Shown: positions 19,874-34,014 of the stretch, piece by piece
Layout: each line of letters begins with the position of its first letter
Numbering within the stretch: position 1 is the stretch's first letter
Origin: Candidatus Niyogibacteria bacterium
GTDB lineage: Bacteria > Patescibacteriota > Minisyncoccia > JACROR01
Length of the DNA stretch: 34,055 bases
Direction of reading: 5' to 3'
NCBI GenBank assembly: GCA_016186495.1
Contig: JACPLO010000009.1
Coordinates: 1 to 34,055 of the forward strand
Made by a program: the position numbers and the translations under genes
Notes under the pieces: model-generated
The model's database searches: none
What the model saw: the letters and a program-made list of their open reading frames with translations, nothing else
What the model was told of the DNA's origin: nothing

Positions 19874-20512
19874 TTAGTGGTGTTGAGAACTGACTTGCGA
19901 CACGGCGAACGCGAACCCGTGGACACGAGACCACCTGTTGACAGGCCTGACGTTGAACGCGTTGAGCCAGCGACCATCGTCGAGACGGTTCGCGTCCAGC
20001 AAGCGCGGATCGCCGAAGGAGTCGCTGATGGGTTCGTGCATGGCAACGATGTACCACAGACCCATCGCTTCGATCTCTTTGTCCGTGAACTTCTCGCGGA
20101 TGAGGCAGGCCAGTTCGGCGTTTGGCTTCGAGAGCTTGCGCTTGTCGGCCTCGGCGCGAATCTTCTTCGTGATACGGCCGTTGTCCTCGAAGAGTATGCC
20201 CTTGAGAACGGCGACTTTGGTCGTCACGCCGTTGGTCGGCTTGAAGTCCGGCGAACGAAGCACCTGCTTGGCGTAGTCTCCGACGTGGAAACCGTTGCCT
20301 TCCAGATGCTTGATCCAGTCTTCGCCGGTCGTGCCGTCGGAGGTGACGCTGAAGTAGATGACGCCGTCTTCCTCGCGCCACGAACGGATCGGTTCGGAAA
20401 CCGAGAGTTCGTCGCGGAGAAAGCGGAGTGCCATGTCGTGGCCACCGAGCTTCTTGACGATGGCGTTGAGTTGGCCGGCGGTAAGTCCGGCGGATGCAAA
20501 TTTTCTGTTCAT
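19874..20512 (-). CDS. G+C-rich lineage-specific protein with a putative diversified C-terminus
   Basis: 212 residues with codon use (strong C or G at third positions) unlike most genes here. A strong ribosome site (AGGAGGTACAATT) precedes the ATG. Conserved-looking parts: FRDELSVSEPIRSWREEDG (about 32-50, written in part), GVTTKVAVLKGILFED and REKFTDKEIEAMGLWYIVAMHEP. The tail, from DPRLLDANR to GFAFAVSQ, is rich in Trp, Asn, Arg and Phe spaced irregularly, as in C-type-lectin-like variable regions. I recognise proteins of this type as recurrent in Candidate Phyla Radiation genomes, from memory, without a known function. It shares layout with the gene at 32944: structured leader, strong ribosome site, terminator. 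Confidence 0.6.
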   Translation of the reverse strand: MNRKFASAGLTAGQLNAIVKKLGGHDMALRFLRDELSVSEPIRSWREEDGVIYFSVTSDGTTGEDWIKHLEGNGFHVGDYAKQVLRSPDFKPTNGVTTKVAVLKGILFEDNGRITKKIRAEADKRKLSKPNAELACLIREKFTDKEIEAMGLWYIVAMHEPISDSFGDPRLLDANRLDDGRWLNAFNVRPVNRWSRVHGFAFAVSQVSSQHH

Positions 20513-27745: not shown

Positions 27746-29119
27746 ATGAAGTTTTTTCCTCCTCCGTGGAAAATAAAAATGGTTGAACCGGCTCGTTTAA
27801 TTCCGCGCCGCGGCCGCGAAAAAGCCATTAAAGCCGCGGGCTTCAACACTTTTTTACTAAAATCGCGCGATGTTTTTATTGACCTTCTGACCGATTCCGG
27901 AACTTCGGCGATGTCGGACCGGCAGTGGGCCGGCCTGATGATTGGAGACGAAGCTTATGCCGGATCGGAAAATTTTTACAATTTGGAAAAAGCCGTCAAA
28001 GACATTTACGGTTTTCGGTATCTCGTGCCAACTCATCAAGGAAGAGGCGCCGAACATCTGGCCGCCAAGGCCCTGATTAAAAAAGGCCAATCTGTCCTTT
28101 CTAATATGTACTTCACCACTTCGCGCGAACACGTTGAACGCCAAGGCGGCATTTGGCGCGACTGCATTGTTAAAGAAGCTTATAATCCCAAAAACAAAGC
28201 TCCTTTTAAAGGCAATTTTGATCTTGCCAAAACTGAAGCTTTTATTAAAAAATTCGGGGCGGAGCAAATCGCTTTTATCCGGGTTGAACCAAATTGTAAT
28301 ATGGCCGGAGGCCAGCCAATTTCAATGCAGAATTTAAAAGCTTTGAGCTTTTTGGCTAAAAAACACAAAATTCTTTTAATGATGGATGCCACCCGGGCGC
28401 TGGAAAACGCTTATTTTATAAAAATCCGCGAGCGAGGATGGAGCGATAAACCGATAAAAATAATCCTAAAAGCTATGATGAGCCTGGTTGACGGCATTAC
28501 CGTGAGTTCTAAAAAAGACAATCTGGTCAATATCGGCGGGTTTTTGGCGACCCGCGATAAAAATTTATTTGAAGAAGTCCGGGCTTTGGTGGTGGTTTAC
28601 GAAGGCCTGCACACTTACGGCGGCATGGCTGGCCGCGATCTGGAAGCGCTTGCCCGCGGCATTCGGGAAATGGCGGATAATGACGATCATATCAAACATC
28701 GAGTTGAACAGGTAATTTGGTTCGGAAATTTACTAAAAGAAGCCGGCGTCCCGATTGTTCTGCCGATTGGCGGACACGCGGTTTATTTAGACGCCAAAGA
28801 ATTCCTGCCTCATATTCCTTTAGCGCAATATCTGGCGCAGACCTTGGCCGCGGCGATTTATGAAGAAACCGGCGTCCGCTCCATGGAGCGAGGCTCGGTT
28901 TCAGCCGGCCGCGACCCTGAAACCGGAAAAGAACACGGTTCAAAACTGGAACTGGTGAGGCTGACAGTGCCGCGCCGCGTCTATACCAACGACCATCTTG
29001 GTTTCGCGGCTGACGGAATTATTCAACTTTTTAAAAAACGAAAAGTCATCCGCGGTTTGAAAATGATTTATGAGCCCAAACAGCTCCGTTTTTTTCAGGC
29101 CCGTTTTAAGAAAAAATAA
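27746..29119 (+). CDS. tpl: Tyrosine phenol-lyase (beta-eliminating lyase)
   Basis: 457 residues, the length of the tyrosine phenol-lyase/tryptophanase group of PLP enzymes, which cleave tyrosine to phenol, pyruvate and ammonia. PLP site: SSKKDNLVNIGGF with Lys256-Lys257; PTHQGRGAEH (about 95-104); MDATRALE with Asp214 and Arg217; EPNCNMAGG with Asn185; DEAYAG with Tyr71; YFTTSREH with Thr124. VRSMERGSV (about 377-386) carries the Met and Arg typical of tyrosine phenol-lyase, while tryptophanase has a different sequence here, so phenol-lyase is favoured. YEPKQLRFFQARF at the end also matches. Unusual for a minimal genome. No ribosome site; divergent from a secreted-protein gene. Confidence 0.88.
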   Translation: MKFFPPPWKIKMVEPARLIPRRGREKAIKAAGFNTFLLKSRDVFIDLLTDSGTSAMSDRQWAGLMIGDEAYAGSENFYNLEKAVKDIYGFRYLVPTHQGRGAEHLAAKALIKKGQSVLSNMYFTTSREHVERQGGIWRDCIVKEAYNPKNKAPFKGNFDLAKTEAFIKKFGAEQIAFIRVEPNCNMAGGQPISMQNLKALSFLAKKHKILLMMDATRALENAYFIKIRERGWSDKPIKIILKAMMSLVDGITVSSKKDNLVNIGGFLATRDKNLFEEVRALVVVYEGLHTYGGMAGRDLEALARGIREMADNDDHIKHRVEQVIWFGNLLKEAGVPIVLPIGGHAVYLDAKEFLPHIPLAQYLAQTLAAAIYEETGVRSMERGSVSAGRDPETGKEHGSKLELVRLTVPRRVYTNDHLGFAADGIIQLFKKRKVIRGLKMIYEPKQLRFFQARFKKK

Positions 29120-29180: not shown

Positions 29181-30347
29181 TTATTCTCTATTTTCTAAAT
29201 CAATCCATTCCTGATTTTCCGGGCCGGTATATATTGCCCGCGGCCGCAAAATCCGGCCTTTTGGGTCGTGAAACTGCTCTATGTAATGAGCCGTCCACCC
29301 TGCAATCCGAGCCATTGCGTAAATCAACGGAGAAATTTCGGATCGAAATCCGATGAAATGATTAACAAGAGCAAAATAAAAATCAACATTGGCGCATAAG
29401 TCCTTTTTTTCGCCAATGTATTTTTCAAGTTTTTCAGCTATATCAAAAAAAATTCTGTCTCGCCTGTTCTTGCTTAAATTCATAGCCCATTCTTTGAATA
29501 TGGCTGTTCGCGGGTCGCTTCCTTGGCCTTTATAAACACGATGGCCAAAACCCATTATAATCCGGTCTTTTTTATCCGTAGCCGCAAGTTTTTGATCAGC
29601 CCATCTTTGGATATTGTCGGGATTGCCAATGAGCTTAAGCATTTTTACTATAAATTGGCTCGCGCCGCCGTGATAAATTCCGGCAAACACGCTCAAACCC
29701 GCTGACACCGCCAAATACATATTACTGCCGGCTGATGCTGCTGTCCTTACTGCAAGCGTGGAAGCGTTCATTTCGTGCTCGCAGCACAAAATTTGTCCGA
29801 CTTCAAACGCTCTTTCCATTTTTTCATCCATCCGGATATTTAAAAGATCAATAAAATTGGATAGCGGCGAAAGTTTTGATGAAATAAATTGCTGTCCTGC
29901 TCCGGTTTTTGCCAATACCGCGTTAGCGGCGATAATCGGAAATTTAGAGATTAATAACAGAGCTCTTTTGTAATTTGCGTCAAGGGTCGCATCTTCTAAA
30001 TTATTATCGTATTTAGCAAGGCTAAGAACTCCGGCCGCCGCCATATTAAACAGGGAAATTTCGGGCCCTAACGACCTGATTGCGCTAATCGTGCGATTTA
30101 ACAGATATTGCTCTTCTCGCATCTGCTCTTTGAAATATTTAAGAGATTTTTCTGTTGGCAGTTTGCCAAACAGAATAAGATAAGCCACTTCTTCAAAACC
30201 GGCTTTTTCAGCCAGGATATTTATCGGGTAGCCGCGGTAAAAAAGCATTCCTTTTTCAGTATCCGGAAACGATATGGCGCTTTCAGCCAAAGCCGCGCCA
30301 TCCAGATATGGAATCAAAACAATATTTTTATCTATTATTTCCGTCAT
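29181..30347 (-). CDS. gltA: Citrate synthase (type II, possibly methylcitrate synthase)
   Basis: 388 residues. It condenses acetyl-CoA (or propionyl-CoA) with oxaloacetate. Catalytic residues: HEMNASTLAVRTAAS (His191), YHGGAS (His226), GFGHRVYKG (His269-Arg270) and NVDFYFALV (Asp322). The end PKGRILRPRAIYTG is the family-typical tail. An AAGGAGGG ribosome site lies just before the ATG. Citrate and 2-methylcitrate synthases are too similar to separate by eye; the B12-linked gene next door, divergently transcribed, makes propionate chemistry worth considering. It is convergent with tpl. Confidence 0.9.
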   Translation of the reverse strand: MTEIIDKNIVLIPYLDGAALAESAISFPDTEKGMLFYRGYPINILAEKAGFEEVAYLILFGKLPTEKSLKYFKEQMREEQYLLNRTISAIRSLGPEISLFNMAAAGVLSLAKYDNNLEDATLDANYKRALLLISKFPIIAANAVLAKTGAGQQFISSKLSPLSNFIDLLNIRMDEKMERAFEVGQILCCEHEMNASTLAVRTAASAGSNMYLAVSAGLSVFAGIYHGGASQFIVKMLKLIGNPDNIQRWADQKLAATDKKDRIIMGFGHRVYKGQGSDPRTAIFKEWAMNLSKNRRDRIFFDIAEKLEKYIGEKKDLCANVDFYFALVNHFIGFRSEISPLIYAMARIAGWTAHYIEQFHDPKGRILRPRAIYTGPENQEWIDLENRE

Positions 30348-30524
30348 TTTTTCCCTCCTTATTTCTCTATTTTCAACGAACCGTTTATTTTAAGATTATA
30401 CGGATAAAAAGCAGCAGTCAATAATTTTTTGTAATTTCATATTATTTATGATAAAGATAATTTAGAATTCATCTCAAATACTGTTCATTAAAATCTTTTA
30501 TAGAAAGGAGTGATAGCGATAACA

Positions 30525-31655
30525 ATGAAAAAGAAAATAAGAATTATTTTGGCTAAAGGCGGGTGGGATGGCCATGATCGGGGAATTAATATCATTAAAG
30601 ATTCTCTGATTAATGAAGGTTGTGAAGTATTTTATTTCGGACTCTTCCACGATTTGAATGACATTGTTGAAATTACCGTTCAAGAAGGGGCGGATTTCCT
30701 CGGTTTAAGCGCCCACAGCGGCGCTCACCGAGAATATATTAAAAAAATTTTTGAACGGCTGAAAAGCCATTCAGCCTTGGATATTGGCTTAATTTTAGGC
30801 GGGATTATTCCGCAAAAAGACAAGATGTTTTTAAAAGAAAATTATCTCGTTAAGAAAATATTTATTTCCGGCACTCCCGAAGCTGATTTAAACAAAATCA
30901 AAACTTTTTTCCGTGAAAATCTCGGAAGAGCCATTACCGCAAAAGATTTTTCATTAAAAACAAAGAATGATGTTGGTCTGGCGCTTTCTGCAATAAGCAA
31001 TGGTTCGCTTGAAATAGAAACGATAGGCAACTTGTCAAAACAGCCGAAAAAAAATATTTTAACTATCGGCATTACCGGCCCTTTGGGAGCAGGTAAAAGC
31101 AGCCTGATAGACAAAATGATCGCTGAATTCCGTATGCTTAATAAAAAAGTTGGAGTTATTACCGTTGATCCCAGCGACCCTTTGGCCAGCGGCGCTTTGC
31201 TGGGAAGGGACAGAACCCAAATGTGGCGGCATCTTTATGATCCGGAAGTTCACATTTACAGCATGGCTACAAGAGGATTTCAGGGAGGAATCGCCGAAGC
31301 TACGCCAAAAGCCATGAAAATTATGAAAGCAGCCGATTATGATGTTATCCTGGTGGAAACAATCGGCATTGGGCAAGATCAAGTGGCAATAAAAAACATC
31401 GTAAAAAAAGTTATTCTTGTTTTAACGCCGGATGTGGGCGAAGATCAAGTCCATAAATCCGGCATTATGCAGATTGCCGACTATTATGTTATAAACAAAG
31501 CGGATATTAGCAACCCTCTAACGCTTGAAAAAGCGATTAACAATATGCTGGACCAAAAACAGTTTGACGTTCGCCCTTTGGTTTTTAAAACCATGGCTAA
31601 TAAAATCAAAGATAACAACATTAAAGAACTGGCGGAAAAAATAATCCAATCGTGA
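30525..31655 (+). CDS. Cobalamin-binding domain fused to a MeaB/ArgK-type GTPase
   Basis: 376 residues from ATG at 30525 (a GTG at 30510 overlaps the GGAG site). Residues 1-130 are a B12-binding domain like the small part of methylmalonyl- or isobutyryl-CoA mutase: DGHDRG (15-20, with the lower-ligand His17), LGLSAHSGAH, LGGIIP and SGTPE. Residues about 175-376 are a MeaB-like GTPase: GPLGAGKS (185-192), VITVDPSDP (211-219), ETIGIGQ (278-284), NKAD (324-327). This is the order of the fused mutase IcmF, but the catalytic mutase domain is missing. MeaB proteins load and protect B12 in mutases. Divergent from citrate synthase. Confidence 0.88.
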   Translation: MKKKIRIILAKGGWDGHDRGINIIKDSLINEGCEVFYFGLFHDLNDIVEITVQEGADFLGLSAHSGAHREYIKKIFERLKSHSALDIGLILGGIIPQKDKMFLKENYLVKKIFISGTPEADLNKIKTFFRENLGRAITAKDFSLKTKNDVGLALSAISNGSLEIETIGNLSKQPKKNILTIGITGPLGAGKSSLIDKMIAEFRMLNKKVGVITVDPSDPLASGALLGRDRTQMWRHLYDPEVHIYSMATRGFQGGIAEATPKAMKIMKAADYDVILVETIGIGQDQVAIKNIVKKVILVLTPDVGEDQVHKSGIMQIADYYVINKADISNPLTLEKAINNMLDQKQFDVRPLVFKTMANKIKDNNIKELAEKIIQS

Positions 31656-32197: not shown

Positions 32198-32458
32198 ATG
32201 AAAAAATATCGCATCGCTCCCGAATTTAAGGAGCAAATATTAACCCGCATTAAAAACGAGGGTGTGTCGGTTCTTCAGGCCGCCGAAGACCACGGCGTTT
32301 CAACGCACAGCATATATAAATGGCTGGGCGGCGGCGCGGACGCCCTGTCCTGCGTCGAGATGGCGAAACTTCGAAGAGAAAATAAATCTCTGCCGGAGCT
32401 AGTCGGAGAAATGACCCTGAAGCTCTCCGAAACCCAAAAAAGAATTGAGAAAAATTAA
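32198..32458 (+). CDS. IS3-family transposase OrfA
   Basis: 86 residues, a usual OrfA size. A helix-turn-helix DNA-binding part is evident (YRIAPEFKEQILTRI, then SVLQAAEDHGVSTHSIYKWL), followed by a leucine-rich coiled coil (LRRENKSLPELVGEMTLKL) used for multimerisation. OrfA of IS3 elements recognises the terminal repeats and, fused by frameshifting to OrfB, makes the transposase. It overlaps a truncated orfB frame that is +1 (or -2) relative to it. The element has lost its catalytic region here, so it is likely inactive. Confidence 0.8.
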   Translation: MKKYRIAPEFKEQILTRIKNEGVSVLQAAEDHGVSTHSIYKWLGGGADALSCVEMAKLRRENKSLPELVGEMTLKLSETQKRIEKN

Positions 32459-32678
32459 ATTGTCGGCCAAAACAGCGTTGGCTCGGGAGCTGGGCATCTT
32501 CCGCGGCAGCCTGTATTACCGACCCAAAAAACCAGACAAGGATTGGCAAGTGAAATGTTTAATCGAGGAAGCGCTCCGGGACAATCCGAGTTATGGGCAT
32601 AAAAGATTGGCCGGGCATCTCTTGATGAACAAGAAAAAAGTGCGTCGGGTAATGAAACCTTTCGGTCTCAACGTATGA
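32445..32678 (+). pseudogene. Truncated IS3-family OrfB (transposase catalytic subunit remnant)
   Basis: 77 codons from TTG at 32445. The N-terminal region matches the HTH-like start of IS3 OrfB proteins: ALARELGIFRGSLYYRPKKP and NPSYGHKRLAGHLLMNKKKVRRVMK, ending at FGLNV before a stop. The integrase-type DDE domain, about 150-200 residues, is absent, so no transposition can be catalysed. The sequence stops close to two palindromes that lead to the second G+C-rich gene. Confidence 0.75.
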
Positions 32679-32692
32679 GTTTCCCCACACGA

Positions 32693-32770
32693 CCATCCAA
32701 GGATCCCTGACGACGGGTTCTATACCTTGGATGGATTAATGCCATGCCTGTCGAAAATTACTACGACAGG
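32693..32770. repeat. Two inverted repeats between the broken IS3 element and the second G+C-rich gene
   Basis: CCATCCAAGG (32693-32702) and complement (32725-32734); CCTGTCG (32747-32753) and CGACAGG (32764-32770). The 265-base stretch 32679-32943 has no gene of its own on either strand. Confidence 0.55.
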
Positions 32771-32836
32771 TTTAGGCAATTCAATTGTACCTTCATTATA
32801 TCAATAAAATTTAGTTTTGAACATATGTAAAAAGAG

Positions 32837-32943: not shown

Positions 32944-33852
32944 TTACTGCGAGAGGAAGCCGGACACCGAACCGAAGAAGTCGTGCGGGTAGCCAACGAA
33001 GCGCGCGTCGAACTCGACCTCGCCGCCGCTGAAGTAGAAGTCGGGAGACAAGGAGAAGTCGCCATCGGCCCCCGGAGAGAACTCGTCGCCGGAACAATCC
33101 ATGTCCAGTTCCTCCCAACGGACGAGCCGTTCGGGATGAGTCAGGACGATGGAACCGACTGCGAGACTTCCGAGACCGAACTCGTTGGCCACGAAGACCT
33201 CACGAGCCCGACGGACGGACTTGCCACGATGGCGCATGCCGAGCTGGGCGGCGACGATCAGGATGTCGCCCTTCTGTGTTTCGGCGATCAGATCGAGCGC
33301 GTGCGCCGTGCGAGCGTGAACCCGCAGTTGCGCCGGCGTGATCTGACCCTCACGGTAGTTGTAGAACGACCGGGAGTCGGCGATCTTGGTGTGAACGAGC
33401 TGGACCGCCTGGCAGTACTTCTGGATCGGATCGGTCACTTCGGGGAAGTGCTTCGCCGCCAGTGCGTCCACCGAGGGAATCGCGAACCATCCTTCGGCAC
33501 CGTTCGGGAGTTCCGGCAGGGTCTTGGCGAATTCGAGCGCGTGGCTCGGATCAAGACCGAAGATCTTGGCGATTGCCTTGACCCGGTCGTTGATCGGCTT
33601 CGGCCCCTTGTACTCCTTCGGGTACGTGTAGCTGGAACGGACTTCCTCGTTGGCGTACTGGTTGGACTGGGACAGCTTGGACTGGGACAGCTCGGCAATG
33701 AGCTTCGCTATCCCGTCCTGTAGTTCGCCACCGCGCTCGTTGAGCCGCTGTGCGCGTGCCTCGTCGAGCTTGGACTTGTTGTAGACGGCCTCGAAGAGAC
33801 CGGTTGCGTGGAGACCTTTCGGGTCTCGGCTGGTGATCAATGTCTGTGACAT
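32944..33852 (-). CDS. Second G+C-rich lineage-specific protein with a putative diversified C-terminus
   Basis: 302 residues from the ATG at 33852, six bases after an AGGAGG site; upstream in-frame starts lack that. G+C content is far above the surroundings (38 of 60 bases at 33001-33060). Recognisable conserved stretches: SRDPKGLHATGLFEAVYNKS, LNERGGELQDGIAKLIAEL, GWFAIPSVDAL, and GKSVRRAREVFVANEFGLG near residue 220. A 15-base tandem duplication (33662-33691) doubles SQS(K/N)L. The tail after SGDEFSPGADGD is rich in Phe, Tyr, Asp, Gly and Ser, ending GSVSGFLSQ. I recall related proteins from other Candidate Phyla Radiation genomes. No enzyme motif was seen. Confidence 0.6.
   Translation of the reverse strand: MSQTLITSRDPKGLHATGLFEAVYNKSKLDEARAQRLNERGGELQDGIAKLIAELSQSKLSQSNQYANEEVRSSYTYPKEYKGPKPINDRVKAIAKIFGLDPSHALEFAKTLPELPNGAEGWFAIPSVDALAAKHFPEVTDPIQKYCQAVQLVHTKIADSRSFYNYREGQITPAQLRVHARTAHALDLIAETQKGDILIVAAQLGMRHRGKSVRRAREVFVANEFGLGSLAVGSIVLTHPERLVRWEELDMDCSGDEFSPGADGDFSLSPDFYFSGGEVEFDARFVGYPHDFFGSVSGFLSQ
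33662..33691. repeat. 15-base tandem duplication in the second G+C-rich gene
   Basis: TTGGACTGGGACAGC is present twice in a row without mismatch. It adds five residues in frame. Confidence 0.85.
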
Positions 33853-33915
33853 CGTCATCCTCCTTCTATGTTTGGATTTGCGAGATTCGCCCTCGCTGTT
33901 GCGGCCCGCCTCTGC

Positions 33916-34014
33916 ATGAGGTAAGCCCGCCGTCGCCAAGGCTTTGACGGGCAAAGCGCATTTTGTCAGTGCGTTTTACCCTTCGTAGCTTTAGCGAAGA
34001 AGGGCTTACCTCAT
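33916..34014. repeat. 99-base palindromic leader upstream of the second G+C-rich gene
   Basis: Outer arms ATGAGGTAAGCCC (33916-33928) and exact complement (34002-34014). Inside are further stems: CCGTC/GACGG, GCGCA/TGCGT, and CTTCG/CGAAG around TAGCTTTAG. A further AAAATAGC/GCTATTTT pair (34017-34046) follows to the window end. Confidence 0.75.

Follow-up and report, generated by a model that had tools for sequence, protein, structure and literature searches.

Among the systems already known are IcmF (a fused isobutyryl-CoA mutase), MeaB and the split mutases, one of whose small subunits is IcmB of Streptomyces. In published work on B12 delivery, IcmF stands as a notable exception to stand-alone G-protein chaperones. 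A B12-dependent mutase is likewise known in Parcubacteria: the Parcubacterium 'Candidatus Parcunitrobacter nitroensis' has one beside methylcitrate-cycle genes (PMC5220378). B12-dependent metabolism in a small-genome bacterium, which the original prediction, made from the DNA letters, called unexpected, already has a precedent here.

Here, we propose that a protein encoded at positions 30525..31655 (+) of a 34,055-nucleotide stretch of Candidatus Niyogibacteria DNA (hereafter the window) is the small subunit of a two-gene isobutyryl-CoA-type mutase fused to its chaperone, and that the window copy has survived intact from a B12-dependent acyl-CoA pathway that has since been lost. We regard this reading as reasonably probable.

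The open reading frame of this two-domain gene (B12-binding small subunit plus MeaB-type GTPase, 376 aa) begins with ATG and runs for 376 codons without an internal stop; an in-frame GTG lies 15 bases 5' of the ATG, and a possible ribosome-binding site, AAAGGAG (30504..30510, +), can be read in the sequence 14 bases before it. By Pfam, residues 6-107 are a B12-binding domain (E 8.6e-16) and residues 179-375 a MeaB domain (E 1.6e-48); the NCBIfam IcmF model NF045497 aligns residues 4-375 with its positions 2-393 of 1076, that is, with its two N-terminal domains only (168.4 bits against a cut-off of 1500). The mutase substrate-binding barrel is absent from the polypeptide, the frame stopping after the G domain. 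The domain order of IcmF, ending after the GTPase as originally predicted, is borne out by Pfam, NCBIfam and the structural match described below. Residues 4-130 (30534..30914, +) form the cobalamin-binding domain (PF02310; TIGR00640, 89.5 bits against a cut-off of 57.5; structural match to 4r3u), residues 131-176 (30915..31052, +) a linker that has two predicted helices in the structure model and is poorly conserved in the alignment, and residues 177-376 (31053..31652, +) a MeaB/MMAA-type G domain, whose PF03308 match covers profile positions 34-233 of 273. Aligned with separate MeaB proteins, most of which bear a C-terminal dimerisation arm, the G domain stops short and the arm is missing; the NCBIfam MeaB model scores the protein at 175.5 bits, under its cut-off of 240.75.

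The motifs had been described as intact, and both sequence and alignment confirm it: DGHDRG at 15-20 (with the cobalamin-ligating His17), S62 and GG at 92-93 in the cobalamin-binding domain, and the P-loop GPLGAGKS at 185-192, DP at 215-216, DR at 229-230, ET at 278-279 and NKAD at 324-327 in the GTPase. Gln308 and Lys311 align with switch III Gln341 and Lys344 of solved IcmF, where substitution lowers GTPase activity (PMC10481361). The window copy keeps 48 of the 53 columns that are invariant in the other five two-domain proteins considered below, the count for its closest relative being equal, and the two genes differ by 0.32, 0.21 and 0.51 at the three codon positions. Judged by this conservation and these differences, the window gene shows no decay; the date of mutase loss is not readable from either.

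An AlphaFold2 model of the protein, built from a 22-sequence alignment, has a mean pLDDT of 85.7 and a pTM of 0.88, with pLDDT falling below 50 only at residues 218-226, in the switch I region. In Foldseek searches with this model the best 14 PDB matches are all IcmF (about 400 columns, query TM about 0.78, 28% identity across both domains), with MeaB and MMAA ranking behind (TM about 0.55, about 250 columns), and the B12 domain matches 4r3u, the small subunit of 2-hydroxyisobutyryl-CoA mutase, with an rmsd of 1.3 over 128 columns. Since the match to IcmF extends over the whole length, the two domains are predicted to pack in the IcmF fashion.

Among 384 genomes of the same class, the two-domain frame occurs in five besides the window's (G016, G243, G173, G127 and G041), and the protein of G016, the Parcubacteria genome GW2011_GWA2_38_13b, is 57% identical to ours. 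In 5/5 of these relatives the gene directly upstream encodes the PF01642 mutase large subunit and ends just before the two-domain gene or slightly overlaps it; in G127 this mutase gene is broken off at a contig end, with its beginning on a second contig. This stand-alone mutase upstream argues that the protein is not a truncated IcmF but a small subunit fused to a chaperone. Hence the original description of a protein that lacks its mutase domain stands in so far as the frame holds no barrel, but is better put as the mutase being a separate gene. Elsewhere in the class the mutase and B12 domain share one frame with MeaB separate (G037, G107 and G056), or separate genes are present (G207 and G382).

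How rare is the fusion? In a scan of 84,980 species genomes it was found only in GWA2_38_13b among the best 80 of 422 matching loci, the others being mostly separate genes, and since few patterns were used and the best 80 of 422 matches considered, its rarity is an estimate. A single-protein query gave no matches in viral contigs and none in the first scan of genome contigs. Rather than the common, well-described family that the original prediction had allowed for, we thus see a form that is rare in the samples searched, and we found no published account of it in the open-licence literature. A plausible forerunner of the fusion is seen at L081, L105 and L097, where mutase, B12 and GTPase follow one another in that order as separate genes, and one Planctomycetota frame among the best 80 of 422 loci (L128) has the domains joined in reverse order. 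In the GTPase tree, the window and G016 proteins form a clade (100/99). Its starred branches require the 'fused' label to change two or more times, which leaves a single origin of the fusion unsupported, although long branches make this result unsafe. In the two-domain proteins of family f36 (L034, L035 and L036) the switch III Gln is replaced by R; they sit on a long separate branch, so the fusion may have had more than one origin.

With what kind of mutase might the fused protein work? In alignment with human methylmalonyl-CoA mutase, the G016 mutase has F for Y in RQYAG and Q for R in EFMVRN, and the G243 and G041 mutases carry the same F/Q, a pair that marks isobutyryl-CoA mutase. From these residues we infer that the mutases neighbouring the relatives' two-domain genes are of the isobutyryl-CoA-mutase type. 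The G016 mutase pair has as neighbours ETF, thiolase, acyl-CoA dehydrogenase and prpC/prpD/prpB, named from their translations except for the mutase, PrpB, PrpC and PrpD. In G016 and G041 the genes prpC, prpD and prpB are on the contig that carries the mutase pair, and in G127 they adjoin the cut mutase; the loci concerned are L154 (7518-10948), L036, L156 and L157.

The two-domain protein would then be a cobalamin-carrying small subunit, fused at its C-terminus to a G-protein chaperone that loads and repairs the cofactor, and mechanistically an IcmF divided where its GTPase gives way to the mutase barrel. The cobalamin-binding domain would hold adenosylcobalamin via His17, the G domain would clamp and release it with GTP hydrolysis, and the catalytic barrel would be supplied by the gene normally upstream. 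We infer this mechanism from IcmF and MeaB, and with it the cofactor loading, substrate class and GTPase activity of the protein.

The role first suggested, as a chaperone or switch for a separate mutase, suits the relatives with their adjacent mutase but finds no counterpart in the window's genome (653,689 bases in 12 contigs, estimated completeness 100%), where the search which had been proposed as a check found no mutase, neither type of adenosyltransferase tested and no NrdJ. The PF01642 family profile, which was positive in 8/14 control genomes and 14/16 relatives, found no mutase in this 654 kb genome, and the G016 mutase as a protein query, in a search run without a positive control, gave no match there. 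Of the adenosyltransferases neither PF01923 nor PF02572 was found, the enzyme being likewise missing from several mutase-bearing relatives, and NrdJ, the B12-dependent ribonucleotide reductase, reached at best 26.7 bits against a cut-off of 400. Adenosyltransferases and NrdJ are present in the closest relative, G016, and NrdJ is strong in G016, G243 and G041. MmgE/PrpD was not found in the window's genome, unlike in G016 and G041/G127, where prpC, prpD and prpB are present. Four other B12-binding matches in the genome are not mutase clients, since three have radical-SAM domains and the fourth a radical-SAM-like cysteine motif only. With no mutase, neither adenosyltransferase type and no NrdJ found, the window copy reads as an apparent orphan, a leftover that probably serves no mutase in the cell. 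Elsewhere, a MeaB-like GTPase (L037, G308:C10) in a genome with a BtuR-type adenosyltransferase and no PF01642 mutase is apparently a second orphan, a chaperone alone.

At the locus itself, the 177 bp intergenic stretch in the mutase gene's place (30348..30524, +) holds no mutase remnant, and the mutases of two relatives, compared by tblastn with the entire window, gave only chance matches (E of at least 2); a mutase frame lying just beyond an assembly error, as had been envisaged, did not appear next to the gene. No cobalamin riboswitch was found in the window. The divergent neighbour (29181..30347, -) belongs to the citrate synthase family and shares 30% identity with the PrpC-type enzyme of GWA2_38_13b; we considered it as a methylcitrate-cycle member, a reading left unsupported by the missing PrpD and the roughly 30% identity to the relatives' PrpC. 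At 27746-29119 (+) is a tyrosine phenol-lyase-like enzyme (672 bits with TIGR02618, whose cut-off is 721), unexpected for a genome of this small size. The two-domain gene lies 2.4 kb from the contig end, and just downstream of it are an IS3-like transposase remnant (32198-32678, +) and, adjoining the tail of that remnant, a LOOT RNA (RF03000, 79.4 bits; 32654-32778, -). The contig has 41% GC, but two of its frames, 19874-20512 (-) and 32944-33954 (-), are GC-rich, their third-position GC being 0.78 and 0.79, and the latter has no Pfam or NCBIfam match.

The leftover reading has to be weighed against the intactness of the gene, which is as compatible with a retained function as with recent loss, against an assembly whose 12 contigs leave room for a mutase lying wholly in a gap, and against the lack of adenosyltransferase in several relatives that do encode a mutase. 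One alternative, which we think unlikely, is that the organism does have the mutase gene, which has moved from this locus and is missing from the assembly, the protein working as it does in the relatives. The 12 contigs and the intact two-domain gene would suit such a history, as would the contig end 2.4 kb away, the transposase remnant just downstream and the precedent of G127, where the mutase gene is split over two contigs. Yet no mutase fragment turned up across 654 kb, estimated completeness is 100%, and one gap would not explain why the adenosyltransferases and NrdJ of G016 were not found either.

About equally likely, and so also improbable, is that the catalytic subunit was lost while the B12-carrier/GTPase module was kept for a mutase-free role, whether as a GTP switch, a B12 store, in sensing or in handover, for instance to radical-SAM proteins. 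All motifs are kept, including switch III Gln308/Lys311, the genome encodes four other proteins with B12-binding domains, and G308 offers the example of a MeaB-like GTPase and BtuR-type adenosyltransferase without a PF01642 mutase. However, the conserved positions are those of the mutase-linked relatives, the sequence has no new feature pointing to another partner, and B12-binding radical-SAM proteins are not known to depend on a MeaB-type loader. To a truncated IcmF, its mutase domain deleted, we give almost no credence: the domain order and the 28% identity across the two domains when the structures are matched are as such a protein would show, but the GWA2_38_13b protein stops at the same point, and the two-domain length recurs in five genomes that encode the mutase separately, before and not after it, which leads us to reject both a truncation and an assembly error at the gene. 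We retain the proposal of a fused small subunit and chaperone whose window copy outlived its pathway. As an orphan, this copy would exemplify how a B12-dependent pathway may go piecemeal in a reduced genome.

How, then, does the protein compare with known systems? Like IcmF of Cupriavidus metallidurans (4xc6), it has a B12-binding domain followed by a MeaB-like G domain, the switch III Gln and Lys and a similar predicted fold (TM 0.78), but nothing like the linker and mutase barrel of IcmF follows its G domain, and in the relatives the catalytic subunit is a separate upstream gene. With MeaB/MMAA it shares a G domain with P-loop, switches I-III and NKxD, and by analogy the same cofactor-delivery role would be expected; unlike them, it has its own cobalamin-binding domain and no C-terminal dimerisation arm. 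Its B12 domain, with DxHxxG, S and GG, resembles the small subunits of split mutases (4r3u, rmsd 1.3), and the relatives' two-domain gene similarly adjoins a separate large subunit, whereas the window protein is fused to a chaperone and the partner large subunit, present in 5/5 relatives, was not found in the window's 12-contig genome. The mutase of 'Candidatus Parcunitrobacter nitroensis' is also parcubacterial and lies near prpC/prpD/prpB, as in G016 and G041, but it is named there a methylmalonyl-CoA mutase, and the part of the report available to us describes no fused subunit (PMC5220378). The engineered minimal system of MeaB and a cobalamin-binding domain (8dpb, PMC9974510) has the same two modules without the mutase barrel, while the window protein is a natural single polypeptide from a different lineage. 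The small fusion is a natural counterpart of the minimal chaperone and B12-domain pair that had to be engineered for crystallography, and would make a convenient single-chain system for studies of cofactor loading.
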